From Takashimella koratensis (lineage: Eukaryota > Basidiomycota > Tremellomycetes > Trichosporonales > Tetragoniomycetaceae): 64,000 bases of DNA. The position numbers and the translations under genes are program-made. Shown here piece after piece: positions 684 to 46,465 of the stretch. The stretch is from assembly GCA_003116875.1 (NCBI GenBank), contig BCKT01000008.1, forward strand, positions 310,001 to 374,000. The letters run 5' to 3'. The notes under the pieces were generated by a model that worked only from the letters and a program-made list of their open reading frames with translations, had not been told where the DNA came from and searched no databases. Each line of letters opens with the position of its first letter. The first letter of the stretch is position 1.

Positions 684-1180
684 TTACAGCTCCCTCCAGA
701 CCAGTTGGCCGTCGGGGACAAGCTGCCCGGTCCCCTCTTCCCCCTCCCCCTCCTCTTCAGTCCCTCGCTTCTCAACATGCACCTCTCCCTCTCCACCGCC
801 TACAGGTCCACCACATAGATTCCAAAACCTCACGCTTTTCGACTCTCCACACGCCCTCGTCCAGTCCCCTGTCCCATCATCTTGGCTGAGATCCACTTCG
901 CCTTTCGCAAAATCATGTATCGAGCCACTTTTGACACCCCCTCCAAAGCGGCGTGACCAGGCTTGGCAGGGGTATATACGATACCCGCATTGGGCGCGGA
1001 TGCATCGTCGTTGGTAGGGGATCAGGCCGCGGGGGCAGAGGAGTCGGAGAGAGACGAAGGAGAGGATGAGAGCGGCAAGGCAAGCTGCGACGCCTGTGAA
1101 CGCGGTCAGAGGTGCAACATGTGGAGGAGGAAATCATGTCACGGACCTGCGGCTGACAGAAGAGGAGAGGATAGAGCCAT
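684..1180 (-). CDS. Array member 1: small single-pass membrane protein, 147 aa
   Basis: Exons 1147-1180 and 684-1093, with a 53-nt phase-1 intron (donor GTCCGT, acceptor TTCACAG). Function unknown. Exon 1 encodes an 11-residue N-terminus (MALSSPLLSAA). Exon 2 opens directly into a membrane span (about residues 12-31) followed by RLLCPRG. A divergent Cys module follows (CIRAQCGYRIYPCQ), in which GYRIYP sits where other members have HRIFLP. The tail is long, acidic and Glu/Gly-rich. Length and the intron just before the span match its neighbours, so I place it in the same tandem family as a divergent outer member. The donor is weaker than GTGAGT, so the first exon is less certain than the second. 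Confidence 0.6.
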
Positions 1181-1382
1181 GGTGCCCTTGTTCAACCAAC
1201 TGAACCCTTCTTATATGATGGTCACGATTGTAATGACAATCTCAACAGCTGGTCCTAAAGAAGACATAGGATGGCTAACGGGTGATACATCACAAAGGAC
1301 GAGACCTCTCGTGTTTCACCTTTCCACCTCAACGTTACACCGTCGACTATCCAGAACGTCTCCCGCCTTTTCGTCTGGGGTA

Positions 1383-1793
1383 TTATCTACCGCCTTGATT
1401 GCCGGACCACGGTTCGAGCATCAACTCCCCTTGGATCGGTTTCCTCCCCAACGGCCACCACGATTTCTTTGACCTCGTACAGTCTTCGGGAAACGCATGT
1501 TGATATCCATATGATCCCTTTTCGTAAGGCATGGCATCTTGCTGTGGTTTGAAGATCCGATGATGGCAGACTCGACAGTACAGGTCGTTGCACATGCAGC
1601 AGCAGCAGCCAAACCGCATCCCGAGGAGCGTCAGCAGGCATAGAAGGAATGCACCGCCGGCTGCGACACCGATGACTGTCGGAAGTTGGGTCAGTTCCGG
1701 GTTCTAGATAAAAGTTACGACTGGGCAAAGGGTACCAAAGTCGAAAAGCTTACCGATCCCGGTGGTGCTAGAGCTAGGAGTGGAACCAGTCAT
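1383..1793 (-). CDS. Array member 2: membrane protein with Cys/His module, 110 aa
   Basis: Exons 1754-1793 and 1383-1675; phase-1 intron GTAAGC...CGACAG. I chose the ATG giving MTGSTPSSSTTGI because the sister genes have N-termini of similar length and Ser/Thr content; in-frame ATGs at 1829 and 1910 are possible. The membrane span (VIGVAAGGAFLLCLLTLLG) is followed at once by an exceptional Cys run, CCCCMC. Then come CRVCHHRIFKPQQ, a His-x5-Cys (HAFPEDC) and the family motif KSWWPLGRKP. The Cys run beside the membrane could be palmitoylated, which is inference. Cellular role unknown. Confidence 0.75.
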
Positions 1794-2178
1794 GGGCTCG
1801 GTCTCGATTGATGATTTAATGAGCAACATGACAAGTATGTGGGCTTTCACCAAGTCGCGAAGAGTTTCAAAGACGAAGACAACCAACAGTCTCTCTCCAT
1901 CCTGTTTCATCGAACCTCACGTCCACAAGCTGTTTACGATGTTGAAGCCATGGGTATGAGAGTAAGAGTTGGCCAACTCACTTGCTTGCACAGAACGTGA
2001 AAGTCCCACGAGGTGAGAGGTACAAAGGTGAGTGGGAATAGTATGTCTGTTCATCTCACATCTACTCTCTGGCAGGTTCCATCATCTCCTCCCAGCCCCC
2101 CTGACCAACGACCATCCCTGTGTACTTATTCCCTTCCCACTGATTAACCCTCTCCCATCTTCCCGTTCCCACCACTCC

Positions 2179-2626
2179 TCACGCGGCTGAAATCACGATC
2201 GCGACCCTCGAATACTGACTCGGCCTCCTGGTAAGCGGATACCAACTCCTAGTAGACGTTTCGCACGCTTCAGGTGTCGTGTGATGCCATTTTCCCTTCT
2301 CATCGACGTCGGCTAGCAGTTGCTGTTCCGGGAGGAAGATACGACCTTTGCATGTGGAGCAGCGTTGGTCCGCGCCCGGAAGGCAGATGGCGAAGTGTTC
2401 AAGAATGAAGATGAGGAAGATGAATATTGTGAGGAAGATGAGAAGGACGCTGAAGCACCAACCTAAGGTTGGAGGATAGGGGAGGTGGTAAGCGAAGGTA
2501 TCGGGGAGAGTGGGCGAGAGTGACAGGGAGGGAAGGGAGGAAACAAGGAGGGGTAGGGTTGGACGCACAAAGCCACTCAGTGGCGGGGGACGGATCGACC
2601 AGCGACGAGTATCTCGCTTGAATCAT
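2179..2626 (-). CDS. Array member 3: membrane protein with Cys/His module, 113 aa
   Basis: Exons 2569-2626 and 2179-2462; phase-1 intron with GTGCGT donor and ACCTTAG acceptor. The 19-residue N-terminus (MIQARYSSLVDPSPATEWL) is followed by a very hydrophobic span rich in Phe, Leu and Ile (WCFSVLLIFLTIFIFLIFIL). The cytosol-facing part carries CSTCKGRIFLPEQ, then HTTPEAC (His-x5-Cys) and SWYPLTRRP. These match members 4 and 10 closely, so this is one of the better preserved copies. The four ligand-type residues would suit one zinc ion, by analogy with treble-clef or LIM-like half sites; no named domain is recognised. Confidence 0.75.
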
Positions 2627-3120
2627 TGTGTATACAGTGTCTTTCTCGTCGACGATATAGAATCGATTTCGGTACCAGCGACCGACTGGTTAGTTCCCTT
2701 GGAAAGGGTGGACGACATCAAAATGCTGTCCAAGATCCGGGTCTACAGTACCAAGCCCCAGTGCAGGTTTCACCCTCGTTTCATCGGCGACGTACATAGG
2801 ATGTGCCAAGGAAGAGGTTATGAAAGGAGGCTAATCCCTGGCCGAGCTATCTTTGTACTCTTCAAACAAAGTATCCTTTGATTCACCCCTCGCGACCGCG
2901 GTCGTCGCTCCCATAACTACGCGACGTGGGATAGTATCAAGCCCTCTGCACATCATCTCACGTCTCGCCAGGTGGCACGCCCCCTCCCTCCCCCCCTCCC
3001 TTTCCTCCTCTCGCAGAGCTCATCTCGTCTCAGGGGATAAACTTCCGTTCACCCCCCTGTAAACTGATAGACACCATCACCGATGTGAATCTACCTCCCA
3101 TTTCCGCGTCAGTACAGCTC

Positions 3121-3561
3121 TCATAGCCAATCTCTTTCACGGGTCTTGCTTACCTCGTCAAGTGATTTGGAAGGTAAAGACTTGGGTCGCTTCCACAACC
3201 AACACTTCCTCGCGTCGACGCATGCAGATTTGGTGGTGTGTTCCCATCCCCCTTCGGGGCTCTTCTTGTATTCGTACTCTTGCTCGGGGAGAAAGATGCG
3301 GTGTTTACATCGATCGCAGATCTTGTCTTTGCCTCGGCAGATACAACCGCCTCGGTGGAGGAAAACTACCGTCATCAGAAAACATATGAAGAATACGCCA
3401 CCGATGAATACCCCTGCAAGTTGCATTGGCAGAAGGGATGAGAGTCAGCGGCCGTTGAACAGGCAGCGGTAGATGGAGAGAGTGTGGGAGATAAAAGACG
3501 AAAAAGATCGCTTACAGATGTATTTGTCCGCAAATTCATCTTCTGCGTCGGTACTCGACAT
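3121..3561 (-). CDS. Array member 4: membrane protein with Cys/His module, 112 aa
   Basis: Exons 3516-3561 and 3121-3413; phase-1 intron GTAAGC...CTTGCAG of 102 nt. The N-terminus is short and acidic (MSSTDAEDEFADKYI). The span is VFIGGVFFICFLMTVVFL, followed by HRGGCICRGKDKICDRC. The module reads CDRCKHRIFLPEQ, then HTTKSAC and RKCWLWKRP, so the usual KSWYPLGRRP is changed here. CICRGKD is shared almost exactly with member 10 (FICRGKD), which argues for recent common descent. Function unknown; topology N-out and C-in is inferred from the basic residues after the span. Confidence 0.8.
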
Positions 3562-3922
3562 GACAGTTACCCGTGGTTACTGGACACGGAGATGGAGGGG
3601 GTATCAAACCGGTTCTGCAAGTGCAGTGTTCTTGGCGAGGACTTGCGTTAAGTAGAGCTGGAAGAAGCACAAAGTCTTTTACTCTTGTAAATCAATGCCC
3701 ACTACATAATGAGTGAGTACCCTTCCCGCGTTCCCACGCGACATCCACAGTCTGTGAGATTATGCATGCACTTCTCACATCCTCTCTTGTGACTAGGGTG
3801 CAAGGAAAGCGTGCGAAAAGCCCACTGCTCGGACTACATGCATACGCCCCACGCACGGCGTCGCCAGAGCTCATACTCAGGTTGCGCCACATAACACTTC
3901 GCTTCATCCCTGTCACATAGGA

Positions 3923-4600
3923 TCATCGTATGATACCGTGTGAATCACCCCTCTCGGCTGCGTCGGCCGCTTCCTTCTTCTGCTTGAGCCAACGTCGTTT
4001 GTTATAATAGTACACCCCAATAATGGTTGCAAACGTTACAGTGCCCTCCAGTAAATATTTGCCCGCTTGTGGCAGTCTGCCTGGTGCGGGTTTACATGCC
4101 TACCTGGTGTTGAACATGACAGCATGCAAACAACCTTTGCACNCTNTGGGAAAAACACCATGAGACAACTATTGTACCTCAGAGGATTGCACAGGTGCTT
4201 CCTGATGCATCCTCAGGCTGTTTGTTCAGAACACACCAATTGGAACAGGCAGGGAGTTCAATCTAAAAGGCCCCTTTNTTCCACACTCAGGCGCAGAGGT
4301 GCTTATGCTTTGTGGGCCAGCAATAAACACTGGGATGGCTAGCAAAGGCATGGGGGCAAAAGGAAGAGAAAAAGTGCAAAGAGGGATGAGATATGTGAAG
4401 TTGAAGCCAACCTCTGCCACAAGCGGGCAAATAATTATTGGAGGGCACTGTACCACCGCCACGACGATCAGTCCAACTGCGTCGTAACGATTCTGGGATC
4501 AGTATGGTTGAGGACTTCAATTCTAGATCTTTCTGTCGCATCGTGTATACTCACTGGTTAGATCGAGGTAGGTAGAGTTGCTAGCGTCGAAGAATCCCAT
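3923..4600 (-). pseudogene. Array member 5 (short form), interrupted by a transposable element
   Basis: Exon 1 is 4555-4600 (MGFFDASNSTYLDLT) with a phase-1 GTGAGT donor. Exon 2 begins at 4476 after CGACGCAG. It encodes GLIVVAVV, and the frame is then broken by the element at 4039-4450. Directly on the other side (4038-3923) the same frame resumes with TFATIIGVYYYNKRRW and ends at a stop. With one TA copy counted, the flanking coding parts total 62 codons including stop, so the pre-insertion gene was a 61-residue short-form member. As the sequence stands, the minus strand reads in frame from GLIVVAVV into the element and stops at 4226, which would give a chimeric C-terminus. It is probably non-functional in this strain. 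Confidence 0.8.
4039..4450. mobile_element. 412-bp MITE-like element, pogo/Fot1-type ends
   Basis: Terminal inverted repeats of 37 bp (4039-4075 and 4414-4450), starting CAGTGCCCTCCA, match at 35 of 37 positions. They are flanked by TA on both sides (4037-4038 and 4451-4452). TA duplication and CAGTG ends are typical of Tc1/mariner-superfamily elements of the pogo/Fot1 kind. No transposase frame is present, so it is non-autonomous. Three undetermined bases (4143, 4146, 4278) fall inside it and nowhere else that I noticed, which suggests a multicopy sequence that was hard to assemble. It sits inside coding sequence of array member 5. Confidence 0.88.
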
Positions 4601-5283
4601 TTTCACGGAAGTCAACTCCAGCCTGATCAAATGCGATACGGTGGGCGAAGATCTGGGCTGGGCCAAAACTGCTATGACAGATCAACAAAGTGTCATAACG
4701 GCAAGCGTGGACTCGGTTCACCTGGTAAAGTCAGCAGGAGTACCAGTGATCAGAGGGCTTCGGCGAGGGGTCGGTGACAGCGGGTCTTGACCTCTTTTGA
4801 TCAGCACCCTGCAGGTGAAGGGTGAGCAGTTGTACGGAGAGTTCCATTGCGGAGTAGGGGTTGGGGATTCGGCGAATTTGAGACGTTTGGCGATACCTTT
4901 GATGCGTCTAGTCTAGGAGGCGCATGTTGTTAAAAGGATGTATCTGAAAGGTTGGAAGCCGTTCTTTCCGCCTTGGTTATGACGTCCGTTTACGGCAAAC
5001 GGGTAAGGCTGATTACCTGGTTTAGTGTAGGGGTGCCAAGTGCGCTGTTGACAATGACAGACCGGAAAACATTAGGCAGGTTTTGCCAGTCGCACAGCGT
5101 AACACAGCTTGGATTGAGCGTGCGCCCAACTTTGAATTCACCTCGCTATTCTACCTAGTGTATCATATACAGCTATGACTAGCTAGAGCATTCAAGTCGT
5201 CTTGTCATCCTGCTTTTCCCACTCTTCGCTTATCTCGCGACCCTCATCCAGACTTCGTGTCACCGACTGTCTTCGCCCATCTG
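4601..5283. other. Intergenic, upstream of array member 5
   Basis: No exon pair resembling the array pattern and no known domain is visible. Plus-strand frames such as the one near 4952-5158 have no start context, homology or neighbour support. The region holds the promoter of member 5 and the 3' flank of member 6. Confidence 0.45.
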
Positions 5284-5493
5284 TCAAGCTGTTGTATGAT
5301 CCTCCCTTGCCTTCTCCTCCGCTTTGAGCCTCTGACTACGCCACCTTCTTTTGAAGATCTCAATGATGAGGCACATTGCCAAAATCGCGCCAACGCAGAC
5401 GACACATAGAATAACTATATCACACTCTTCAGCCTTGGTCAAGACTTTGATGTTTTAACAAGACTCACTCGCGATCTTCATATCTGACTGCAT
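5284..5493 (-). CDS. Array member 6: minimal membrane protein, 51 aa
   Basis: Exons 5469-5493 and 5284-5414; phase-1 intron GTGAGT...GATATAG. The N-terminus is only eight residues (MQSDMKIA), then the span ILCVVCVGAILAMCLIIEIF, then a basic tail starting KRRWRSQRLKAEEKAR and ending at 51 residues. It has no Cys/His module, no RIF motif and no WYPLG motif. It is the shortest intact member, and was found only by following the splice pattern because neither exon makes a long open frame. The KRRW after the span is shared with member 5 (NKRRW). Function unknown. Confidence 0.65.
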
Positions 5494-6075
5494 GGTGGAA
5501 GAAGAACCTTAGTGTGGGGCACGAAGTGGGGCTACGTGAAATGAGGTAAAAGTGTGTGGTTTGAGTGGGAAGGGTCCAGTCAAGTTGTGGAAGTCTGAAA
5601 TGGACGTTTGGGTCGAGGGTATATGCTCGAGCCCGCTCCTGTAGGGATATAGGGTGTCATAGGAGCACCCGCAGTCGGCCACCTGGTGTCTTGCCTAAGT
5701 TTGATCGTCCATGAACGGAGGGTCTAAAACGGATGTCTGTGACTCGATGAGGAGCCTCTCCCATCTCCCTATGCCTCTCTTTTATTCCATGTTGGTCGTG
5801 CATCACAAAGTTTTGGGGGCTCAGGTGCACGGACGTGAACGAACAAAGCTCGACAATTTCAGTATATCATAGTGATGCGCTGACAAGTACGTATTCTCGC
5901 ATGGTGATGAGATTCAGAAGAACTTCTAGCTGAAAGATGAATCTCCTGAGCTAGCCCGCCAAGTAACCTACATGCCTTCACATCATCTGCACGCTCTTAG
6001 TTTTGCTTCCATCGTGAGCGTACCTTGTGTCCCTCAAAGCTCCGGACGCATTCAATCCCCTTTCCCAGTTCATCC
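5494..6075. other. Intergenic between array members 6 and 7
   Basis: No supported gene. The sequence is AT-richer than the genes and contains the promoter of member 6 (near 5500-5750). Confidence 0.4.
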
Positions 6076-6338
6076 TCAAGCGTAACCGATACTAGGTCTG
6101 CGTAACTCTTTTCCTCCATTTTCGTCGTCCTCCGAAAGTAATGCCTTCACCCTTGGGTAGAGGAAGATCATGAAAGCCGTGAAAAGCGTGACATAGAAGC
6201 CGAATAAGACTGCAAAATATTCCATTAGGCTTGAATCAGGACGACAGGTATTCTCGGATCTATACTAGGGGCAAGGGGACGTTTTCACTCACTGATAGCG
6301 TCTACGATGGTAAAATCGAATGTTGAATCGAGCCACAT
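6076..6338 (-). CDS. Array member 7: minimal membrane protein, 59 aa
   Basis: Exons 6293-6338 and 6076-6209; phase-1 intron with GTGAGT donor and TTTTGCAG acceptor. N-terminus MWLDSTFDFTIVDAI, span ILFGFYVTLFTAFMIFLY, short tail PRVKALLSEDDENGGKEL and onward to the stop. It is a short-form member lacking the Cys/His module. The tail is more acidic than in other short forms. Start and stop are fixed by the shared gene architecture, since each exon alone is too short to stand out. Function unknown. Confidence 0.65.
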
Positions 6339-6727
6339 GGTAAACACCTCGATGCGAAATTAGCGGAAGATGTCAGTTGGTCTTTAGATAGTTATTGTCG
6401 ACTTCCGAGATCGCGATTGTTCGAGTGGTGAACTTGAGATATAAGTTTGCGTTTCCGGTTAGAGCACTAACACAACAAAGGAAGAAACAAAGGATGACTA
6501 AGTGACCATGTGTTGTATGCCCAGTGTCATCGTCCGGAACCGGTACTCAAAGGATGCTGAGGGGTACTGAGAGAAGCCTCGCTTTGGATCTGTCACTCGA
6601 CACCCGAGTCCATACTCGCCTCCATGTTCAACGTTTGTTTCAAGGTTCACATTGCAAGAAAGTAGCTGGGGTTGTCAAACGGTTGATCTACGTATAAAGG
6701 CACGTCTTGACACTATCACTCGAGAGC
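6339..6727. promoter_or_regulatory. Upstream region of array member 7
   Basis: Around 6517-6560 (about 180-220 bp upstream of the member 7 start) lies a block ending CTCAAAGGATGCTGAGG. It resembles blocks upstream of members 8 and 9 and of the relic at 9.7-9.9 kb. This suggests the promoter was copied together with the genes. Nothing else coding is seen. Confidence 0.35.
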
Positions 6728-7096
6728 TTAAGGATACGGCAATCCATTCCGCGCTTGCGCCGTATTCATCAGGTGCTCAAATCTTTGCGCCTCCGCTTTA
6801 GTCATGCGTCTACACATTGGCTTGGGTTTCACCTCCCCCTGTTCTCCGCCTGCCTGGCTATTCCCCTGAGCAAGACGTCGCCTTATTAAGCAACACCAAA
6901 CGATACCCCCAAAAACTGCCAGGGCAAGGACTACGCCCACAACGACTGCGGAGATAGATCACGTCAGTTACCATCAAACTTGTTGGCTGCTCCTCGATTT
7001 AAGGAGGGAAGATCGGGTCGGCTTACTCTCAGCCTCCATCATATAGTGGGATTGGGAAATTCCCGCATTCGTAGTAGAGTTTGTATTGATGTCCAT
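6728..7096 (-). CDS. Array member 8: short-form membrane protein with extended tail, 95 aa
   Basis: Exons 7027-7096 and 6728-6945; phase-1 intron GTAAGC...GACTGCGGAGATAG region with acceptor CTCCGCAG. N-terminus of 23 residues with Asn/Thr/Ser (MDINTNSTTNAGISQSH), including a possible N-glycosylation site NST. Span VVGVVLALAVFGGIVWCCLI, then RRRLAQGNSQ. The tail is longer than in other short forms and contains PKPMCRRMTKAEAQRFEHL. The span and following residues are nearly the same as in member 9 (GVVLAVAVVGGIVWCYLIKR), marking the two as recent tandem duplicates. Function unknown. Confidence 0.75.
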
Positions 7097-7567
7097 GGTG
7101 AAACGTTCGTTGAGAGATATTCTGGGCGCGGTAGGTGTTTGGACAAGTAACTTCCAGTATCATCTTGACGGAACAGTCTTAGAGGAGAGTATTGCTCAGT
7201 GCACATGAAGGCACAAAGGACGGGTTCGTGTCAGTTAACCCGTGTGATCGGACGTGAATGGAGAAGCTCAAAGGATCTCAGAGGCTATCGTTCCCCCTTG
7301 GGTGAGACTTCTGTACAATGAGAGTTTTGCAAGGAGAGGTGTCAAGTCCGATTGCCAAATTTAGAGTGCATCGGTTCCATCTTTGCATCTTTGCATCTCT
7401 GCCCAACTTTTGGCTCCGTCTAGCTCGCAATAAAGTATTTCCGGTTTCAAGTGGCGTCCAGTCATGGACATACGAATGTTAAGACATTCTTGCGTGCCCT
7501 TACTTTCAGTTTCAGCCCACATCTTGCACGTACCTTGCTTCTTCCATTCCGTTGGTATCTTGGATTT
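7097..7567. promoter_or_regulatory. Upstream region of array member 8
   Basis: Contains CCCGTGTGATCGGACGTGAA followed shortly by AGCTCAAAGGATCTCAGAGG (about 7225-7285), about 130-190 bp upstream of the ATG. A similarly ordered block is found upstream of member 9. No coding feature seen. Confidence 0.35.
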
Positions 7568-7860
7568 TTAGGCAGCTCTGTCACCGGTTGCGTGAAATGA
7601 TGCCTCCGCCAACTCCTCTGCCTTCTGTCCTTTCTCCTGAGCGAGACGTCGTTTTATGAGGTAGCACCAGACGATACCGCCGACAACTGCAACGGCAAGA
7701 ACGACTCCAACAGTGACTGTGGAAACGGTTGCAAGTCAGTCACCAACAGAATCATCCACTACCCTTCGATCTAGGGAGGGAGGATAGGTGTTTGCTTACT
7801 CTCAGCGTATAACCTCAAATTAGACTGGCTAGATTGGTCAGATCCTGTGTCGGTACTCAT
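7568..7860 (-). CDS. Array member 9: short-form membrane protein, 69 aa
   Basis: Exons 7800-7860 and 7568-7716; phase-1 intron GTAAGC...TTCCACAG. The N-terminus is Ser/Asp-rich (MSTDTGSDQSSQSNLRLYAE). The span is VGVVLAVAVVGGIVWCYLI, followed by KRRLAQEKGQKAEELAEASF and a stop soon after. Closest paralogue is member 8, with similarity also in the intron start and the upstream region. It lacks the Cys/His module. Function unknown; predicted N-out, C-in from the basic residues after the span. Confidence 0.75.
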
Positions 7861-8340
7861 GGTGAGATGCTTGTTGTAGTTGCAGTTATTAGTGAGGCTT
7901 TGGAGACGCAGTATGGTGTTACATATTACAATATTTGGTTTGTTTTGGGCTGAGCAGCGGTGGAGGAAAGCATCATCCAGTCGACGACTCCTTGAGGTAC
8001 AAAGGACAAGTCGGTGTCCCGTGCGAGTGACCATGAAAGGAGGGTTGCTCAAGGGATGCTACCAAAGGTTTTGCATCTCTTTTCACCTGTAGGTCACCAA
8101 TGACGGACTATCAGCTCGAAGTTGCAGGGAGGGCGTCTGTATAATGTTTCAGGAAAACCGAAGATGTTGATCCATGTAAAAGGATGATGTCTGAACACTG
8201 CATACACAGAATACTACTGAACCGACCGCAAAGCCGCCCCCCTCCCCCCTTGGTTCCCCAAGCCCCTCATGCCTCCCTTAAATCCTGCTAGTAAATCTTT
8301 CGTAACAGTTGAGGGCCTCTATCACCTGCCCGACATTGGG
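7861..8340. promoter_or_regulatory. Upstream region of array member 9
   Basis: Carries CCCGTGCGAGTGACCATGAA, a short GA-rich spacer and GCTCAAGGGATGCTACC (8018-8058), a diverged copy of the block upstream of member 8 in the same order and at similar distance from the start. Nothing coding is supported. Confidence 0.35.
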
Positions 8341-8793
8341 TTATGAAGCCCGCGGTCGCCTGCCTAGCGGGTACCAGCTTTTTCTGGACACTTCGCAGCG
8401 ATCGCTTGTGATGTGAACGTGTTGTACTTTGTTACGCGAATCACCGGTGTTTTGTTCAACATATTGACCTTGTTGTTCCGGAAGGAAAATCCGCCGTCGG
8501 CATTCGCGGCAAATGTGGTCTTTGCCACGACAAATAAAACCGCCGCGAACGAATATGAACAGGAAGAGTAGAAAGAAAAGGAAACCAAAGACGCCGACGA
8601 TAATCCCTGAGAAGTTAGAAAGCCTGTATGAGTTGGATTGAAAGTCTGAAACAGCAGAGGACGACAGGAAGATTTCTTGGGAGACGAGAAGTCGGCCAAG
8701 TCGACACTCACAGACGTAAAATCCGACGCTGTCGGAACTACCAGAGTCCATGTTTGCGGCGCCGCCATCAACAATGACATTGGAGCTACTCAT
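8341..8793 (-). CDS. Array member 10: membrane protein with Cys/His module, 115 aa
   Basis: Exons 8712-8793 and 8341-8606; phase-1 intron GTGAGT...TTCTCAG of 105 nt. N-terminus of 27 residues (starts MSSSNVIVDGG, later MDSGSSDSVGFYV), then a Phe-rich span (IIVGVFGFLFFLLFLFIFV). Next are RGGFICRGKDHIC, the module CRECRRRIFLPEQQ, HITSDRC (His-x5-Cys) and KSWYPLGRRP near the end. This is the best copy of the family consensus. The intron is a multiple of three and contains no stop, so a retained-intron form would add 35 residues before the span. Function unknown. Confidence 0.82.
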   Translation of the reverse strand: MSSSNVIVDGGAANMDSGSSDSVGFYVCECRLGRLLVSQEIFLSSSAVSDFQSNSYRLSNFSGIIVGVFGFLFFLLFLFIFVRGGFICRGKDHICRECRRRIFLPEQQGQYVEQNTGDSRNKVQHVHITSDRCEVSRKSWYPLGRRPRAS

Positions 8794-9276
8794 CGTGTTG
8801 ACCGGAAATAAAAGTTTGGGAAGTGGGAAGGATTGTTGATGGAGGTGAGAGGTGATTATATGCTCCCCAAAAAATAGTAGGGCTCCATTCCAGGATGGCA
8901 CTGGTCACTTCACAATGGCTACGGGTGATATCGGACGACTACCTGTTTGAAAGGAGCTGACTGTCTTCTCACCTTTTTGGATGAGATCCTTATACGTTGC
9001 TCGCCAAACCCTGATCGACGGTTGCCGATCAACATCTCATCCCTCCCCGGGGATCAGGAGGTCATATCAAACATCGTTGCAGGAGCACCGAGGTACATTT
9101 TCAACATACGGCAGATGCCCTCAAGGCAGGGCGTGGGTGGTAGCATTACTCCTCTCCGTAGATCCCTTATCACCGCCTCAGACGTGGTTCCAACGTAGAT
9201 GTTTGCTTTGAATTTACTGAACAACACTCCACAACATACATCGCGTCTACTTGATGTTCAGCTGCCGGCTTTCTAC
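8794..9276. other. Intergenic upstream of array member 10
   Basis: No array-type exon is visible. Plus-strand frames near 8947-9211 overlap one another in two frames and match nothing recognisable. Region contains the member 10 promoter. Confidence 0.4.
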
Positions 9277-9444
9277 CTAAGAGGACCTGTACCAGCTTTT
9301 TTTGGAAGCCTCTCAATCGGCGGCGTCATGATGCTCCCATCGTCTTGTCTCTCCCACAAAGATCGGCATTTGTGCAGAACTGAACATTCGCTGTCGACAT
9401 TTGGTGCAGTAGTCTACTGGCATGCTCATCCTGAACACCCTAAA
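9277..9444 (-). pseudogene. Relic A of the Cys/His family
   Basis: Reading the minus strand from about 9444 gives a stretch ending DYCTKCRQRMF, a family-type Cys-x2-Cys-x-x-R-M-F module. It continues to WEHHDAAD, where an in-frame TGA stands exactly where the His-x5-Cys cysteine is expected. After the TGA the frame continues EASKKSWYRSS, matching the KSWYPLG tail, and then hits a stop. A one-base shift there recovers LGRKPAAEHQ. No upstream membrane span or splice pattern survives. The order of motifs is clear, so this is a decayed member and not a chance frame. Confidence 0.65.
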
Positions 9445-9464
9445 CATACCGACCTTGTTTTCCA

Positions 9465-9683
9465 CTACCCATTCTTTCTCATCAACCTTTCACCGTCTTC
9501 CAGATACATATCGGAGTATTTTTGTTGCGCTCTAATCAAATCCCCCCTGCTGTACAGTGTACATCCCTTCACTTGAGGATCTGGCCTCCCGCCGAGGTAC
9601 TCCCACCAGCTTTTTTCCCGACTAGGGTAATCAAGGCGGCGCACCGAACCGGTCCCTCTCGTTTCGAGCCCTCTACACATCAT
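9465..9683 (-). pseudogene. Relic B: isolated C-terminal motif of the family
   Basis: An open minus-strand frame contains SREKSWWEYLGGRPDPQVKG, which resembles the KSWYPLGRRP tail of intact members, followed by unrelated sequence ending LEDGERLMRKNG. No Cys-x2-Cys module or membrane span precedes it. It directly follows relic C, so it may be a second, partly duplicated tail end. It could also be a chance resemblance; the match is one motif only. Confidence 0.4.
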
Positions 9684-9960
9684 CTCCGACGAACTTCACC
9701 TCTTTCGGCGCTGGTCGCTTGCCGAGTGGGTACCAACTCTTCTTCAACGCCCGGCAATCCGCGTCTTCCATATGTTCATATCTTTCTCCGTTTTTCGCCC
9801 CGCTATCCTCTATGGTCTTGCATCCTTGTACGAGGGTGAAAATTCGGCGGTGGCATCATTTTGTTCTAGCTCTCGGGTATGGTAATGCACTCAAATCGGT
9901 TATTCCGAGCGTGTTTCACCACCACCGTGTACGTTTTTTTTTTGCTATGGCCGTTTGCAC
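9673..9960 (-). pseudogene. Relic C of the Cys/His family
   Basis: From 9855 downward the minus strand reads CHRRIFTLVQGC, then YEHMEDADC (His-x5-Cys) and KKSWYPLGKRPAPKE to a stop at 9673. This is a complete downstream half of a family member. Directly before the CHRRIF codons there is an in-frame TGA. Further up, frames carry more stops and a run of ten T on the plus strand near 9932, with no recognisable span. The upstream block near 10033-10085 resembles the promoters of members 8 and 9, so a full gene probably once stood here. Confidence 0.6.
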
Positions 9961-10391
9961 AACCTCAAGCAGGCATTTGGTATTGTCGCACGTCCGGTGG
10001 AGCCTCTCTCCCCAGGCTGCGCGTGAACGCAGTATGGGAGTGAACGGACGCATAAGGAGACCGAATGGGGCTCAAAGGACCACCACGTTGGGCTAGATGA
10101 AGGATGAAAGGAGCAAGAGGTGAGATCCGTTCAAATGACCCCGACGTCACCATTGTGGACTTGCAACACGTTACATAGTTGGCGATCGCCTCCTCGTCTT
10201 AAGGGGAGACCGGAAACGCACTCGTCTGCCTGCTCAAGTATCCGCTGAGCTTGCTCGGAATCCCCTGGCACAGTACGGCATGGTACGACATGGTCGTCTG
10301 ATCCAACGAGGCTAAATCCTCAAATGCTCCAGAATTTGTAAAGTACAGATGTCTATGCAAAGAGTCCGAGAGCCCCCTTATCTCTTCCCTG
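9961..10391. other. Flank between relic C and array member 11
   Basis: Contains GGGAGTGAACGGACGCATAAGG and then GGGGCTCAAAGGACC (about 10033-10083), similar to the upstream block of members 8 and 9. No intact gene is seen. Confidence 0.35.
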
Positions 10392-10805
10392 TCATGCCAC
10401 CTGCTTGGACAACGGCCCTGGTCTTCGCCAAAACGTCCAGGAACACCCACTCCCTCCTGCTCTCAAACACCCGTCAACTACCTCTCCATCCTCAAACTTG
10501 GTTTTGACATGCTGAAATGTTCCTGTAAATCTCCCATCCCCATCCGTTAACCTTTCCCACTCGATGCCTTCTTGTTGATCGGGGATATAGATCCTCGCTT
10601 TGCACAGCTCGCATGGAAGGTCGTTGCCTTTACAGATGAGGTCTTGGCGCCACATGACGAAGAGACAGAGGAGGAGGATACAAGGCGCCATGAGGCAGAA
10701 GAGGATGAGGTTGCCCTGAGGGGAGAGACCGGTGGAGTTGCATAGGTTGGAGTTGGTGTATGTCGTCGCGCAGTTGGTCGCGCCGAGGCGACGGGGAAGG
10801 ATCAT
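10392..10805 (-). CDS. Array member 11: intronless membrane protein with Cys module, 137 aa
   Basis: A single open frame. N-terminus of about 30 residues with several Asn/Thr and two Cys (CATTYTNSNLCNSTG), giving a possible N-glycosylation site NST. Membrane span about residues 32-53 (LILFCLMAPCILLLCLFVMW). Then DLICKGNDLPCELCKARIYIPDQQ, which aligns with the ICRGKD..C-x2-C-x-x-RIFLPEQ region of members 4 and 10. The His to Cys spacing is longer than in sisters (FQHVKTKFEDGEVVDGC), and the tail has GCSWTFWRRPGP in place of KSWYPLGRRP. Unlike the other intact members it has no intron before the span. Function unknown. Confidence 0.78.
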   Translation of the reverse strand: MILPRRLGATNCATTYTNSNLCNSTGLSPQGNLILFCLMAPCILLLCLFVMWRQDLICKGNDLPCELCKARIYIPDQQEGIEWERLTDGDGRFTGTFQHVKTKFEDGEVVDGCLRAGGSGCSWTFWRRPGPLSKQVA

Positions 10806-11382
10806 GGTGAATGAGAGTAGGAGGAAGGAGGGACGAGGAGGGTAAAGAGGTGTAAGACGATGTGGAAAAGAGGAAGAAGTAGAGTGTCCGTTTAAGGAAG
10901 GCAGTCGAGAATGTACGTGCGACAGCTAGGCATCGAGCCAGTTTGCGTACCTTCGGTTGGGTCGAAAAGAGTGGGCGACCTCAGACTTGGACTCGGTCGT
11001 TTGTTGTACTCGTTCAGATACAAACTGATTGCGGATATGGATATCTGAGTGAAGGCATATGTTAAGGTCGTGGACTAGGTGTCGTAACAGTATGGGAGCT
11101 TGTGGAAAGATTGTGAAAGGGGCAGATAAACAAAAGACGGTTCGCGCGGGATCCCTTCCTTTGATACGTATCGTTGCCACGCTCGTTGCTGGATATGGTT
11201 CACGGTGCCTTGTCATGTCTCTTGGTACAGCTAGTCTTTCTATACATACTCGATACATATTCGGATATAATAATTCACGGCGATGAAGGTTTACACATTC
11301 ACGTACTGCCTACGCTCACGGCAACATCATTTACCAACCAAGACTAACGAGACGAGCTACCGACTAAGGCTAAAGTACCAGA
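10806..11382. other. Intergenic between array members 11 and 12
   Basis: A minus frame at 10926-11258 is open for 110 codons but has no span, Cys module or splice pattern of the array and no recognisable domain. I treat it as non-coding flank. Confidence 0.4.
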
Positions 11383-11726
11383 CTATTTTTTGGTGGGACA
11401 ACCTTCATGAAAGTTTGTTCCCTCGTTTGCAGGAGCGCTCTTGGTGAACGGTATCTTACAATAATGGCATTTGGGACGTCTCGACCTCCAAAATGCGTAG
11501 CTGATTCCTACAATCACTACGATGCTGATGATCCCGATTGCGACGGGAGCTGAGCAAGAGTAGGGTGTTAGTGTCTGTCATGGTAGAAAAGAAGACGAGC
11601 GTGAAGGGATTGTACGGGAGAGGAGGGGAGAGTTTGCTCACCCCAGTATTTTTGGAATTCACTCTCCACGCTCGAAGTATCGGTCGACGAGGTGTCGGTG
11701 GTAGTATCTCGTAGGAGCAAATACAT
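11383..11726 (-). CDS. Array member 12: small membrane protein with minimal Cys/His module, 83 aa
   Basis: Exons 11642-11726 and 11383-11549; phase-1 intron GTGAGC...GCTCAG. N-terminus MYLLLRDTTTDTSSTDTSSV and onward to QKYW, strongly Thr/Ser/Asp-rich. Span PVAIGIISIVVIVGISYAFW, then RSRRPK and a compact CHYCKIPF, ending FHEGCPTKK. The pattern Cys-x2-Cys ... His-x2-Cys is a shortened version of the module in members 2-4 and 10. It forms the right-hand end of the array, next to a divergent housekeeping gene. Function unknown. Confidence 0.72.
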
Positions 11727-12223
11727 CTTGTCAAGCAGAGGCCGAGCTCGTCTTCTATTGTTTCTTCGCTTATTACGTAGCGGCGAGGAATAGACGAGCT
11801 GGGTGATAGCGCGAATTGCGTGAGTTGCGTGAGTCGAGGGAGATGGGTGAATATGGCGAGAGGTAAGTGAGAGGAGAAGGCTAGCCGAGACTGGTGATCA
11901 TTTTTGTCACTCGGGGTTAGAGAGTATTGAACTGCTGGGTGAGGTAGAATTGGAATCGGTATCGGGGTATGCATATGTAGGTGACGTGGGTGAGCCCCCC
12001 GATTGCGGGGAGTGTTTGAGCATGTGTTTGAAGGTATGAGGGGGTTACAAAGGCAGCGAACGTGAAGGGTGGGGTAATGGTGAAGGGAAGGCCAAATTGA
12101 CCTTGCTGCCACAAAATCGCCACTCACTTCAAATCGTCGCGTCGCGTGTTTCGTCGAAATGACTTTTCGCACCGACTTCCGACTTGTCCGTTTCACCATC
12201 AACCTCTCAACCACAAAAGCACA
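11727..12223. promoter_or_regulatory. Divergent intergenic region, array end / TXNDC9-like gene
   Basis: Lies between two head-to-head starts (11726 minus, 12224 plus). A long minus frame crosses it but is low-complexity and overlaps exon 1 of member 12 in another frame, so I leave it out. It should carry both promoters. Confidence 0.5.
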
Positions 12224-13647: not shown

Positions 13648-15100
13648 CTAAGCGTCTCCACGCATCAGCCCCCAGAGCTGTTTAACCTCCTCATCGTCTC
13701 GGCTCAGGTTAATACGTTCTGCCGCCACAGCATCTGCGACGTGGTCGGGGTTGGTGCTCCCACACAATGGAGTTATCCCCCACCTACCCAGGTAGTCAGC
13801 TAGGGCACTCTATTGTTTTGGATGTGTCTCAAAGTGGGATTGGTGGTATATTGGTCGTTGGGTGGGTAGGGGTGAGAAGAGACGTACAATTGGCAGACCC
13901 GATAGAGCGTTGATTCTGGCGTAGCTCCGACTCGACGAGCAAGGGAGACCAGCGTCGGATGCGCAAGGAGGCTAGGCGAACCGGTAAGTGTCCAGAAGGA
14001 TTGGTACATGATTCCTCTCTCTTGACAGAGATCGTACACTAAACAAGGAGTCAGTACGTGCTCATCAACCTCGTCGCTGGTGCCCCCCCAGGTGCCCCAC
14101 GACACTATTCCCACTGTTTTACAGTCACTCACCGTCCCAGTCCCATCCGTTCCCCTGATACCACCTATTCTGAACTATCTCTACTCCCTTGCCTTCTCCC
14201 TTGACACCATCCAACCACCTTACTTCCTCCGCGTCATAACAATTCGAAACCCCGATCCGTCTCACTTTCCCGTCCTCCACAGCTGCCTTCAACACCCCCC
14301 ACGCCTCCTGCGTCTGGGCGCGGGTTCTGAGCGGAGAGTGGAGGACGAGTGCGTCAAGATAGCTCGTGTGCAAGTTGGAGAGCGAACGGGAGAGGGAGGA
14401 GAGGACTTGAGAAGAGATCGGGGAAGAGGGATCGTAAGGAAGTGGAAGGGAAGGGTCTTGTCCGTCGATCGAGGTAAATCTGCACGAATGAGCAAAGGAG
14501 ACGTGCGGGGAAGAGTTGATGAACGGGAGGACGCGGTGAACGCGGGAGGAAGAGGAAGAGGAGGATGGGAACGAAGACAGGCGATAAATGTGGATAAAAG
14601 GATCAGGCGTACTTGGTTTGGATGTAGAGCTCTTCTCTGGTGACGATACCTTCATCGATGGCTCGCTTGATCCCTTGTCCCACTAGGTCTTCTCTATGAG
14701 TCTATCAGCCCCGTGCAGACCATGACCAGTAGTTCAGGTCATTGGGACCGCGAGACACAGGACACAACGTACCGATAGTGCTACGACAATCCGTCAGCCT
14801 CGTGTGACCTCTGTAAAGTGATGTATACGTTGGCCGTGTCATGGCCAGGGCTCACCTTGGGTTGGCAAGCGGTGTCGATGGCTCGGAAACCAGCTTTAAG
14901 AGCCGAGTAGACAAGGTCCGCGGTACGTTCTTTCTTCCTAGGGGTAAAGGGGCTCAGCGTAGTCGTTGGGTTGGTGTCAAGATTGGGAGGGGGTAAAGAG
15001 GTGTGGAGCATTGAGCCGAGAGCAAGGAGGTACCAAGAAGAAACACGACATACCACGCTGTCCCGTAGATGATCTTGGGAATGCGCATATTGTCTTCCAT
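13648..15100 (-). CDS. Aldo/keto reductase, 291 aa
   Basis: Exons 15054-15100, 14856-14937, 14773-14780, 14613-14693, 14479-14133 (read downward), 14038-13888 and 13807-13648. A NAD(P)H-dependent carbonyl reductase of the AKR superfamily. Catalytic tetrad visible: Asp37 (RAIDTA), Tyr45 (KHYRED), Lys73 (IQTK) and His120 (LVLHSP). Later motifs: RRIGVSNCYDAEEV, then GITPLCGSTNPDHVADAVAA. Substrate cannot be told. The third exon is only 8 nt (His-Tyr-Arg codons), and it supplies the catalytic Tyr; without it the frame and tetrad are lost. The last splice site (acceptor AATAGAG) is chosen for frame and homology. Confidence 0.85.
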
Positions 15101-41745: not shown

Positions 41746-44212
41746 GGCGGTCTTGCCGATAATCGGACTTTCACGAAGACATGACGAGACGAGACGAGAC
41801 TGGTCGAGGCGGAAGCGAGGAGAGGAATCAGGGCGTAGACTGTAGGGTATCCGGTAGCCAGTAGGGGTTGAAACGTTGACGTTATGCATCCCGTACCATG
41901 ACCTATGCTACCAGAACCTAGACTAGGTCAACACGCTGAACCAACGTGGGCAACAACGTCGCACCGACACGGCCGTGGACGAGGTACGAGCCGGGCGGAG
42001 AGAGAGAGTGAGGGGTGGAGGTGTGCACACCGGTGTATGGAAGTTTGGGAAGTCCAAATAAGTGGACTCTACCCGGTGGCAGCGTTGTAATTGATCGTGA
42101 CACTGGCGCGCGGGACAGACCCCTGGCGAAGGTGATGGTGGGCCTGGCCCGACCTGACGAGAGAGCTCACCCTGGCTCACCCTGCACCTGGTCCACCCGT
42201 GGCCGTACTTCACGGCGGCCGTGTGGAAATAGCTTTTCGGAGGGGGTTGAGCCAATCAGATCCAACGTGCATGACGAGTAAGAAACCCCGTACAGAAGGG
42301 AGGCTGCGCAATCGGGGCTACATGCTGATTTGGGAAGAGAGGAGAAAGAGCCTCGGGCTGTTTGACGAGGATCTCGTCTTGGTTGACCGATGACACCGAG
42401 TTTTTACTGGATCTGGAGAGGTTGTGGGGTTTTGGGCCAAGTGTATGCCCGTTGGTCTCGGTCAGGTCAAACGCCTTGGACCTCCCGGGATCGCCGCTGT
42501 TCAAGCCCAGGTACGTTACCTCGAAATCCGTGGGAAAGGTTAATGCGGCAAGGGGCCAGAGGAGTCAGGTTGAGCGAGCAGATCGCAGCACCACAGGTAC
42601 CCGGGGGTAGGGGGTAAAGGTTCCGAACGCATGGGTTGCTGAGCTAGCTACAGTATATGCTCTATCACACTTGCTCGGACCTGATGGCTAGGTACAGAAC
42701 AATACGGGGACCACCACCCCTTTCTACAGCATTGAAGCTCTCATGTTTCGGTCGCGCGCAGTTGGCAGTCTAAAAGACCTCGGGACGTCTAACCACTTTG
42801 TACCAGAATAGAATTAGCCTCGGAGGCAAATCCAACTGAGACCATTTAGACTGCGCAAAAGTGTCTCGGATTTTCATTAGCAGCTTGCCGAGGTCGAGGA
42901 GATGCGGCAAGTGGGCGACGTCGTCGACGTCGGTTGGCGGATAGATCGTGGATGCATGGATGTATGGGTGGGTGTAAGCCGAGAGGAGAGGGGGGGGAGG
43001 GTTGGGTGGTGGGGGTTAAGGGCTGAGTGGTGTCGTGGGTCCCGTCGCACTCCCGTTTTCGGACATTAATTAATCGACCTTCTCGGGTCCTCTGCCTGGC
43101 CACCACATGTCTCACTCCCGGAATCAGGACAGCTCTCGACCGACCCGAACGAAGGTCTGCTTCGAATACCTCGGACGCTGCGGCAGATCACCTCGGCCCA
43201 GGGCTCTCCGGGACGGGTTCTCAGGGGAATTGCGTGCCGGGATACCGCCCGGCAGAGCTAGTGGGTCCTCGATTGGCTCGTGCTGTCTGAAACATGACCT
43301 TGATTCACCGAGACTGTCACTTCCTCAGCGCAGTCACATCTACCCACCATACACTCAGCATCCATCCACAAGCATACAGTAGACCAATCTTTACTCACTG
43401 CCTGCACTCACCCTCTGCTCTGACGCGTTCAGAACCAATCGCCCCTGTCCATCCCATCCGAGACATTCGACCACTGCTGCTTAAAAATTATTCCTCGCTG
43501 CTTCCTACCATCACTTGAGACATCATCGTCCATCCCGCATAGGACGCCCCTGGCTCCCGTCTACATCGCTACTACTCTGCTCATCCAACCCCCTACTCAC
43601 CTTACCCCTCTCTGCTCGGATCGATCCAGCTCACATTAATGCGAGACAACTGCCTATTTCGAAACGGGACCTCCCCGCTTCACCACCTCGCCCTTCTCTC
43701 CACTCTAGCTCTCCCACCTTTCCCCTCTCTCGTCACTCCACACTCACCAACACGAGCTACCAGACCCAGATCCTCTGACCTCACCCGCCGTCATGATCAG
43801 ACCCCTCAATCCACTCGCTCAGGACTGCGGTCGCGGGACGCGATGGTCCATTCTGGATCCTGTCACCGGGAGCAGCCACAACGCGCCCTCGAGAGAATTT
43901 TGCTTGCTCAATGATCGGTCACCAAAGATCGAGACCATCGCCCAACCCGACCTCAACATGTTATATCAATACTGAGATCTGACGACTGACATCCCCCCAA
44001 TTTTCCCCCCCTCCCCCAACTCTCTCTCATTCTTTCTTTCATCACCCCACCACACACAGTCATTTGATCACCACATAACTCGATCGACTACACGAGAACC
44101 AACCGCGACGACGACCACCAACACAGTCTTTCATCACCTGTCGTCTGCTCGCCACTCCTAGGCAGCAACTTCCCTCCTCTTCCTCCTCCCTCCCCTACTC
44201 CCGCCACACACA
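41746..44212. other. Gene-poor 2.5-kb region upstream of the PriA-like gene
   Basis: No spliced gene model could be built on either strand. Several frames of 60-110 codons overlap one another without recognisable content. The last 700 bp is pyrimidine-rich, with many short ATG frames on the plus strand (for example 43515-43778 and 43793-43975). This would suit a long 5' leader or a promoter of a highly regulated gene. A non-coding transcript is possible but not visible from sequence. Confidence 0.5.
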
Positions 44213-46465
44213 ATGAAGTTCTCCAACCTCGCCGTCGCTCTCCTTGCCGCGGCTGCGCCGTTTGTCGACGCTCGCGGCAGCCAGCCCAACCGTATCGGCC
44301 GCGCCTCCGTTGCCGCCGTCACCCCTCGTGCTCCCGCCACGCAGATGGCTGAGCGTAACTACGTCAACCTCGGCTGTCTTAACCCGATCTCGGTCCTTGC
44401 CTGCACGCTCAAGCTCCAGAACACCAACGCAGACTGCACCTGTGGAAGTGAGGCGACCACCACTTCGTCCACCAAGGCCGCTACCTCCACCTCTGCTTCC
44501 AAAGCCGCTTCTTCTTCCGCTGTCCCGTCATCAGTCGGCGGAGTCTGCATCAACTTCCTTGCTATCGCCGAGTGCTACCTCGAGGGCAAGTCGACTAACG
44601 GTGACTGCTCATGCGCTTCCTCTTCTTCCGCCACCGTCCCCGTTGGTGGCAGCACAAGCTGCAAGAACTCCAACTCGCTCGCCAACTGCTGGTCTTCCGG
44701 CTACGGTTGCGACAACTCGTGTAACTGCGTGAGCGCGTCGACCTCGACCTCATCTTCCAAGTCGACCGCGGCGCCTAGCTCGTCCTCGTCTTCCAAGACT
44801 TCTTCCGCCGCCGCCACTACCTCGTCCTCGTCCGCCGTCTGCACCAACTGGCTCTCAATTGCTGAGTGTTTCCTCGAGGGCAAGGGCACCAACGGTGACT
44901 GCTCTTGCTCTTCGTCGTCCCCGAGTTCCTCCATTCCCGGCGGCACCTCGTCTTGCAAGAACTCAAACTCGCTCGCTACTTGCTGGTCTTCAGGCAAGGG
45001 ATGCAACTCCGACTGCTCGTGCGCTTCCACTACTTCGTCCTCCAAGTCGACCGCCGCCCCGACTTCCTCGTCGTCTTCCAAGGCCTCCACCACCTCGTCC
45101 ACCCCGGCCGCCACCTCTTCGTCCGCCTCGGTCTGCACCAACTGGCTCTCCATCGCCGAATGCTACCTCGAGGGCAAGGGTGTGAACGGCGACTGCTCCT
45201 GCTCGTCTGGCTCCCCGAGTTCCTCGATCCCTGGCGGCTCGTCTTCTTGCAAGAACTCCAACTCGCTCGCAACCTGCTGGTCTTCAGGCAAGGGATGCAA
45301 CTCCGACTGCTCTTGCTCTTCGACTTCCTCGTCGTCCTCCAAGTCGTCGACTTCCACCGCGGCCTCGACCACCTCCAAGTCATCCACCACCTCGAGCGCT
45401 CCCGCTGCGACCTCCTCGACTTCGTCCGTCTGCACCAACTGGCTCTCGATCGCCGAATGCTACCTCGAGGGCAAGGGCGTGAACGGTGACTGTTCTTGCT
45501 CTTCGTCTTCGCCTAGCGTCCCCGGTGGTTCCTCTTCATGCAAGAACTCGAACTCGCTTGCCACCTGCTGGTCTTCCGGCTGGGGCTGCAACAGCGACTG
45601 TTCGTGCTCTTCCACCTCTTCCTCCTCCAAGGCTTCGTCGACCTCGACCTCCTCGACCAAGACCTCATCCAGTGCCACCTCGACCCCGTCTTCGTCGGTC
45701 TGCACCAACTGGCTCTCGATCGCCGAGTGTTACCTCCAGGGCAAGGGTGTTGCCGGTGACTGTTCCTGCTCTGGCACTCCAAGTGTTCCCGGCGGCGGTT
45801 CGAGCTGCACCAACTCGAACTCGCTTGCTACCTGCTGGTCTTCAGGACGGAGCTGTGACTCCAAGTGCTCTTGCACGACCACCTCGTCCAGCTCTTCCTC
45901 GACCTCGTCGTCGTCCATGACCATCCCTTCGTCCGTCGGCAAGTGCACCAACGTTGCTTCTATCGAAGCGTGCGTTCTCAAAGGCCTCGGTGTCAACTCG
46001 GACTGCTCTTGCGACACCTGCAGCTACCTCACCCAGTGGGAGTGCGCCCTCCAGTACGGCGGTACCCTCGACGGCAACTGCAACTGTGTCAAGCCATCGG
46101 GCTCTCGTCGTCGTCGTGACCAGACTGTCTCCAACAACCTCTGCCCCAAGTCCATGTCCGCCTGCAAAGTCGAGACCGGCATCAGCTCCAAGTTCTCTGG
46201 TAGCTTCGAGTGCCTTGACCTCACTTCCAACATCGACTCGTGCGGCGGTTGCGTCTCCGAGGGTCTCGGCCAGGACTGCACGGCCATCGAGGGCGCCGGT
46301 GACGTCGGCTGTATCAACTCCAAGTGTGTTGTCTCGTCCTGCATGCGCGGCTGGTCGCTCTCTGCCAACGGAACCGCTTGTGTCCCGACTAGCAACAAGG
46401 CTCGTCTCAGCTCGAAAATCGCCATGGGTTCGCTCAAGGGTGTCGAGAAGTTCTGGGGCTTTTAA
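44213..46465 (+). CDS. Secreted Cys/Ser-rich repeat protein with PriA-like C-terminus, 750 aa
   Basis: A single intronless frame. Signal peptide MKFSNLAVALLAAAAPFVDA. Then a run of modules, each C-(I/T)N-(F/W)L-(S/A)IAEC(Y/F)LEGK-x-x-NGDCSC, then SCKNSNSLATCWSSG and GCNSDCSC. At least five are well conserved, with divergent first and last ones. They are joined by Ser/Thr/Ala linkers that are probably O-mannosylated. After SRRRRDQ, a possible Kex2-type site, the C-terminal domain reads NNLCPKSMSACKVE, FECLDLTSNIDSCGGCVSEG, then CTAIEGAGDVGCINSKC, CMRGWSLSANGTACV. This matches the PriA family of basidiomycete cell-surface proteins. No GPI signal is evident. Probably a wall or adhesion protein; ligand unknown. 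Confidence 0.88.
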   Translation: MKFSNLAVALLAAAAPFVDARGSQPNRIGRASVAAVTPRAPATQMAERNYVNLGCLNPISVLACTLKLQNTNADCTCGSEATTTSSTKAATSTSASKAASSSAVPSSVGGVCINFLAIAECYLEGKSTNGDCSCASSSSATVPVGGSTSCKNSNSLANCWSSGYGCDNSCNCVSASTSTSSSKSTAAPSSSSSSKTSSAAATTSSSSAVCTNWLSIAECFLEGKGTNGDCSCSSSSPSSSIPGGTSSCKNSNSLATCWSSGKGCNSDCSCASTTSSSKSTAAPTSSSSSKASTTSSTPAATSSSASVCTNWLSIAECYLEGKGVNGDCSCSSGSPSSSIPGGSSSCKNSNSLATCWSSGKGCNSDCSCSSTSSSSSKSSTSTAASTTSKSSTTSSAPAATSSTSSVCTNWLSIAECYLEGKGVNGDCSCSSSSPSVPGGSSSCKNSNSLATCWSSGWGCNSDCSCSSTSSSSKASSTSTSSTKTSSSATSTPSSSVCTNWLSIAECYLQGKGVAGDCSCSGTPSVPGGGSSCTNSNSLATCWSSGRSCDSKCSCTTTSSSSSSTSSSSMTIPSSVGKCTNVASIEACVLKGLGVNSDCSCDTCSYLTQWECALQYGGTLDGNCNCVKPSGSRRRRDQTVSNNLCPKSMSACKVETGISSKFSGSFECLDLTSNIDSCGGCVSEGLGQDCTAIEGAGDVGCINSKCVVSSCMRGWSLSANGTACVPTSNKARLSSKIAMGSLKGVEKFWGF
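44540..45900 (+). repeat. Tandem coding repeats, about 270-330 bp units
   Basis: Five well-conserved copies of the WLSIAECYLEGKG ... CWSSG ... CSC module, with near-identical DNA in copies 3-5. Linker lengths differ. Such repeats are prone to copy-number change. Confidence 0.85.

Follow-up and report, generated by a model that had tools for sequence, protein, structure and literature searches.

Several described systems share single features with the small proteins reported here. Phospholamban-type microproteins bind a larger membrane protein through their span. LITAF-type domains carry a Cys-x2-Cys pair ahead of a membrane helix, and PARP-type fingers have the spacing C-x2-C-x28-30-H-x2-C. 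VAL1 and VAL2 are plant chromatin proteins with a PHD-like domain, and we know of no membrane span in them. Among fungal promoter motifs, the pheromone response element (PRE) is given as ACAAAGGGA (PMC3248468) and the TR-box of Ste11 as TTCTTTGTTY (PMC3713066). According to the latter report, the two TR-box-like motifs of the gene under study were not critical for its expression (PMC3713066). Here we compare with these systems a tandem array of tiny genes in the basidiomycete Takashimella koratensis (assembly GCA_003116875.1; 25.1 Mb, 24 contigs). The array occupies 11 kb (684-11726) on the minus strand of a stretch of 64,000 nucleotides (the window; contig BCKT01000008.1, C8:310001-374000), and positions given without a contig refer to this window.

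Our data confirm that the tandem array is real. Calculation supports the gene structures, purifying selection on one gene pair (m8/m9), a conserved tail in a core of five members, and a shared upstream element. We read the array as a lineage-restricted tandem family of single-pass membrane microproteins, in which an inward-facing zinc-finger tail would dock a partner and an HMG-box-type site would co-regulate the genes. For this reading as a whole we estimate a probability of about 0.45.

Layout of the Array and Gene Models

The array, all of it head to tail, consists of 11 intact genes, a twelfth, m5, that is interrupted, and two relics. An initial annotation, made from the letters of the DNA alone, had described twelve recognisable genes plus relics on one strand, mostly split and encoding 51-147 residues, and our models agree: the 11 intact ones span the same range of lengths, and ten of them have two exons, m12 being the single-exon gene. 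In the two-exon members exon 1 has 25-85 nt and the intron 53-106 nt, while exon 2 encodes the membrane span and the tail. All ten introns are in phase 1 and lie at most 5 codons from the start of the span, which was taken as the best 19-residue window of each protein. The intron falls 5 codons inside the span in m1, and the distance is at most 2 codons in the remaining nine.

The part ahead of the span is short (6-32 residues in the intact members), and its charge is zero or negative in 10 of the 11. The description of the tail as basic and mostly Cys-bearing proved loose. It fits as far as the net charge of the whole tail is positive in 8/11 members (7/11 over the first 15 residues after the span) and at least three Cys are present in 7/11, but m6, m7 and m9 have no Cys in the tail and m8 has one. 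With 51-69 residues, m6, m7 and m9 are hardly more than a span. The zinc-like motif of the tail, the common intron phase and the upstream element described below were absent from the initial annotation.

Comparison of the Array with Control Sequence

A two-exon scan with a branch-site filter was applied to the array (11.8 kb) and to a control made up of the remaining window sequence plus thirteen 10-kb stretches from the same genome, both strands being scanned. The control stretches were a non-random choice (six from mating genes, one from the left flank, one with a weak match, and five spread over other contigs). The scan returned 10 loci in the array (m1, m2, m4, m6-m10, m13 and a read-through of m5), all on one strand and none on the opposite strand; the intron adjoins the span in 10/10 and is in phase 1 in 10/10. 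Gene m3 is missing from this set because the filter found no branch site in its intron. In 363.4 kb of control strand there were 11 loci, four of them with the span beside the intron and only one of these four in phase 1; the criteria of span placement and phase had been added once the array had been seen. In the stretch adjoining the window on the left, the scan found no locus.

The genes m8 (6728-7096; exons 7096-7027 and 6945-6728; 95 residues) and m9 (7568-7860; exons 7860-7800 and 7716-7568; 69 residues) form a pair with a non-synonymous divergence (dN) of 0.28 and a synonymous divergence (dS) of 1.28, and with a dN/dS of about 0.22 purifying selection acts on this pair. Their N-terminal exons align poorly and their spans stay alike, the span being the best-kept part. 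For m4 and m10 the proportion of differences was 0.81 at synonymous sites (pS) versus 0.36 at non-synonymous sites (pN). In most other pairs the synonymous sites are near saturation, whereas the amino-acid sites are not.

A Conserved Cys/His Tail in Five Members

Five members share an invariant tail motif, C-x3-D-x2-C-x2-C-x2-R-I, followed by a later His and Cys. These are m2 (1383-1793; exons 1793-1754 and 1675-1383; 110 residues), m3 (2179-2626; exons 2626-2569 and 2462-2179; 113 residues; model placed by eye), m4 (3121-3561; exons 3561-3516 and 3413-3121; 112 residues), m10 (8341-8793; exons 8793-8712 and 8606-8341; 115 residues) and m12 (10392-10805; 137 residues). Eleven tail-side positions, including four Cys and one His, are identical in all five (C41, D45, C48, C51, R54, I55, P58, Q60, H74, C80 and P92). 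The spacing in m4, whose tail was modelled, is C-x2-C-x22-H-x5-C. A different spacing, C-x2-C-x16-H-x2-C, is found in the tail of m13 (11383-11726; exons 11726-11642 and 11549-11383; 83 residues).

AlphaFold models were built from six sequence rows, once for span plus tail and once for the tail alone, with a mean pLDDT (predicted local distance difference test) of 73.7 and 73.0, respectively. Both models place strands around the Cys pair, which sits in a turn after a strand, followed by a hairpin and a helix holding the last Cys; the His stands at the end of the strand preceding this helix. With moderate confidence, the modelled layout of the core tail resembles a treble-clef zinc finger. Fold searches with both models gave no significant match, the VAL1/VAL2 PHD-like domain being ranked first, and in a sequence search of solved structures the best hit was zinc finger protein 295 (E 0.037), which was not taken as kin.

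Relationships and Homology Searches

The initial annotation had treated all members as one family. By sequence this holds clearly for m2, m3, m4, m10, m12 and one relic only. A second sequence pair is formed by m8 and m9, to which m6 (5284-5493; exons 5493-5469 and 5414-5284; 51 residues; short basic tail) is weakly joined. No match to the core profile was obtained with m1, m13, m9 and m7; of these, m1 (684-1180; exons 1180-1147 and 1093-684; 147 residues) has a divergent tail with an RIY motif and an unusual splice donor, GTCCGT, and m7 (6076-6338; exons 6338-6293 and 6209-6076; 59 residues) is a sequence outlier. All four have the upstream element, and it is this, together with gene architecture and orientation, that ties them to the core.

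The view that the array corresponds to no named family was upheld. A profile of the five core members yielded 727 candidates among 5.8 billion proteins, none at E ≤ 1, and a profile of m9, m8, m6 and m13 yielded 416 candidates and no homologue; m1 and m7 were part of neither profile. As a control of the database, a neighbouring CWC24-like protein retrieved 2725 relatives; among the best 120, many came from named Tremellomycetes, with identities of about 57-69%, and none exceeded 71%, with Kwoniella, Cryptotrichosporon and Papiliotrema among the matches listed. The database thus covers Tremellomycetes, apparently without this species. Since the search requires shared 5-residue words and gene calls, a split, fast-evolving homologue could escape it. 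In the genome itself, queries with m4, m9, m13, m10, m12, m8 and m6 (m1, m2, m3, m5 and m7 being left out) found no convincing copy outside the array. A match on C2 (E 0.0035) runs antisense to a long open frame and was taken as chance, and a match on C7 (E 0.32) was not convincing.

A Pfam scan of ten members (m7 left out) gave no family above its cut-off, the best E value being that of LapA_dom to m6 (E 0.00059; 20.1 bits against a cut-off of 28). The zf-LITAF-like family (PF10601) reached 15.9 bits with m10 and 12.2 bits with m3, against a cut-off of 23.8, and was rejected; the array was not among the matches listed in a genome search with PF10601, and the N-terminal parts of the five core members contain no Cys-x2-Cys. 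A LITAF-like gene above the Pfam cut-off is located at C12:1148858-1149099. A PARP-type finger was likewise dismissed, given the spacing in m4 and the lack of any such Pfam match among those listed up to E 1, as was kinship to phospholamban, for which a single match, to m12, was obtained (E 0.51). Within the texts covered by a literature search, no described family was recognised as that of the array.

A Shared Upstream Element

When 6-mers were counted in the stretches upstream of the 12 genes (m5 included), the most widely shared word was CTTTGT on the gene strand, present at 10/12 genes and missing at m10 and m12. On the plus strand it reads ACAAAG, and 12 such sites are found at the 10 genes: upstream of m1 (1292-1297), m2 (2022-2027), m3 (2866-2871), m4 (3669-3674) and m5 (4685-4690), two upstream of m6 (5805 and 5843; 5805-5848), two as ACAAAGG upstream of m7 (6475 and 6487; 6475-6493), one each within ACAAAGGAC upstream of m8 (7213-7221) and m9 (7999-8007), and one as ACAAAGG upstream of m13 at a distance of 321 bp (12047-12053). 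A single CTTTGT, at m3, is in the opposite orientation.

None of 500 dinucleotide shuffles reached 10 genes, either for CTTTGT or for any 6-mer. Among 7-mers, CCTTTGT (ACAAAGG on the plus strand) is present at 6/12 genes, a number reached by 1/500 shuffles. The GC-matched background gives a chance of 0.167 per stretch and a binomial P of 7.9e-7 for 10/12, which becomes about 0.003 when multiplied by 4096 words, sister genes not being independent. The 60-nt flanks of the sites have a median identity of 0.25, which is chance level, with the highest value for m8/m9 (0.42). With all flanks but those of m8/m9 at chance identity, descent of shared flanks alone does not easily explain the element. 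Genome-wide, there are 290 occurrences of ACAAAGGAC and 177 of its reversed reading. ACAAAGG is scarce in the window outside the array, whereas other stretches have up to 6 per 10 kb; a background taken from the window is therefore too low, and the support comes from the shuffles, the GC-matched background and the orientation, not from density. Judged by its sequence, CTTTGT would be an HMG-box-type core.

The genome also carries mating genes. A pheromone-type gene with a CVVA ending at C2:2042811 adjoins a STE3 gene (C2:2038000-2047999), and this region is probably a pheromone/receptor locus. Two further STE3-like genes, about 3 kb apart, lie within C15:460000-469999. Within 500 bp upstream, CTTTGT in the orientation of the array is absent from the C2 STE3 gene, the pheromone gene (which has one at -943) and one C15 STE3 gene, and is present at -470 of the other C15 STE3 gene; the STE3 starts for this comparison were taken from the profile match and not from a mapped ATG.

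Relics and a Mobile Element

Gene m5 (3923-4600) has a first exon and a splice donor of the same kind as the other members, and its span-coding part is split by an inverted-repeat element of 412 bp with TA at each end (4037-4452; 416 bp with both TA). The arms of the element measure 39 bp with the TA counted and are 95% complementary. Its first 97 bases match three other genomic places at 98-100%, and the second inverted end is visible at two of them (C3:431314-431725 and C4:1652245-1652655), one end being seen at the third (C3:669195 onward). Because of these matches the insertion is taken as young, and the element is probably recently active and non-autonomous.

In relic A (9170-9489) the piece CTKC...RMF...H and an end of the GRKP type lie in different frames; this relic was recognised by eye together with a repeat (D1) and appears in no homology search result. 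Relic B (9673-9861) preserves part of a tail, CHRRIF...H...C...SWYPLGKRP, and carries a stop at its start; it retains the later part of the invariant core positions and matches m10 with an E value of 1.7e-5. A repeat of 88% identity at 2934-2959 and 9661-9686, downstream of m4 and relic B, is perhaps the trace of a duplication that included the 3' flank. Outside the array, at 44162-46462, the window encodes a protein rich in Ser, whose gene has internal repeats of 294 bp and which ends in a CPL1-like part (PF21671). The nearest genes with a Pfam assignment on either side of the array are one of the RhoGEF/DEP type, left of the window, and an aldo-keto-reductase-like gene on the right (14128-14682).

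Discussion

The family may have arisen by local duplication, divergence and decay at a single locus. The N-terminal charge of zero or below in 10/11 members and the positive residues after the span in 7/11 favour, for most members, an orientation in which the N-terminus, short and for the most part acidic or without charge, would face out and the tail would face the cytosol. The tails of m2, m3, m4, m10 and m12, and perhaps that of m13 with its other spacing, could fold around one zinc by means of the Cys-x2-Cys and the His/Cys. Such a finger could offer an interface for docking, either recruiting a cytosolic partner to the membrane or pairing with a sister tail; m6, m8 and m9, which have no finger, might work solely through their spans, as partners or brakes. 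The common HMG-box-type site would turn on the whole set together. In a more far-reaching version, which we regard as speculative and doubtful, the array would be a novel family of zinc-finger adaptors tethered to the membrane, which arose and diversified at a single locus of one Tremellomycete lineage. An HMG-box factor would activate its members jointly, and the tails of the paralogues would recruit different partners to the membrane at some developmental stage, for instance mating or the growth of filaments.

Other explanations have to be weighed against this reading. That the array consists of chance open frames or decayed sequence, with no working genes, is very improbable: two relics and one broken gene would be in keeping with decay, and sequence support is weak for m7 and m1, but ten of ten phase 1 introns in the array against one in the control, the low dN/dS of m8/m9, the excess of pS over pN in m4/m10 and the CTTTGT upstream of 10/12 genes all speak against it. 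The initial annotation had suggested a role in recognition, sensing or conflict. Surface proteins of this kind with variable outside parts could account for the poorly aligning N-terminal exons of m8/m9 next to their similar spans, and for the presence, in a tandem array, of relics and of a gene that a young element has disrupted. The idea was not borne out, since the outside part has only 6-32 residues, the core members keep the tail and, in most pairs, synonymous sites approach saturation, and we consider it quite unlikely. From the conservation of the core tail we infer that the proteins are more likely to dock a cytosolic partner, or to pair through sister tails, than to serve in recognition outside the cell. 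The same conservation weighs against regulators that work within the membrane, where the span would bind a larger transporter or receptor and the tail only tune it. The three members with little beyond a span and the well-kept spans of m8/m9 would suit such regulators, yet no relationship to phospholamban emerged, and this explanation appears unlikely.

The upstream element raises the question of a programme for mating or the filament stage, in which an HMG factor of the Mat2/Prf1/Ste11 kind would read the CTTTGT/ACAAAG sites as pheromone-response-type elements, and the proteins would work on the surface of cells that mate or fuse. CTTTGT is the core of the PRE and of the Ste11 TR-box, Cryptococcus Mat2 binds PREs (PMC3744442), and the genome has STE3 genes and a pheromone-type gene. 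On the other hand, a site in the orientation of the array lies within 500 bp of only one of the four mating genes of this genome, the exact PRE ACAAAGGGA is found at 0/12 of the ACAAAG sites of the array, and HMG-type sites occur outside mating too. A link of the array to mating may be suspected, and we consider such a programme doubtful.

If the preferred reading of a co-regulated, zinc-finger-tailed microprotein family is true, the array would be a clean case of a new membrane protein family arising and being co-regulated in one lineage. Three internal features support its reality: introns of a single phase and place, the purifying selection seen in m8/m9, and an upstream element common to most of the genes. 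Tiny split genes are difficult for gene finders, so comparable arrays in the genomes of other fungi may go unnoticed. The array also yields a biochemical claim that can be tested, a zinc-binding tail behind a membrane span.

Compared with the systems named at the outset, the array shares with fungal pheromone-response and TR-box promoters an ACAAAG core placed upstream in one orientation, and differs from the pheromone-response promoters in having no exact PRE; three of the four mating genes compared in the same genome have no site within 500 bp. With zf-LITAF-like proteins, to which m10 and m3 gave weak hits, the array shares a hydrophobic helix followed by a Cys-x2-Cys knuckle, but the Cys-x2-Cys before the helix is missing in the core members. 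The VAL1/VAL2 PHD-like domain (5yug, 5yuh and 5z28) is the top-ranked fold match and far below significance. Treble-clef C2HC fingers of the PARP-type and half-LIM kinds share with the modelled tail the Cys-x2-Cys, the hairpin and the helix with the last Cys, and are set apart by the C-x2-C-x22-H-x5-C spacing of m4, with no Pfam family above its cut-off and no convincing sequence match in the PDB.

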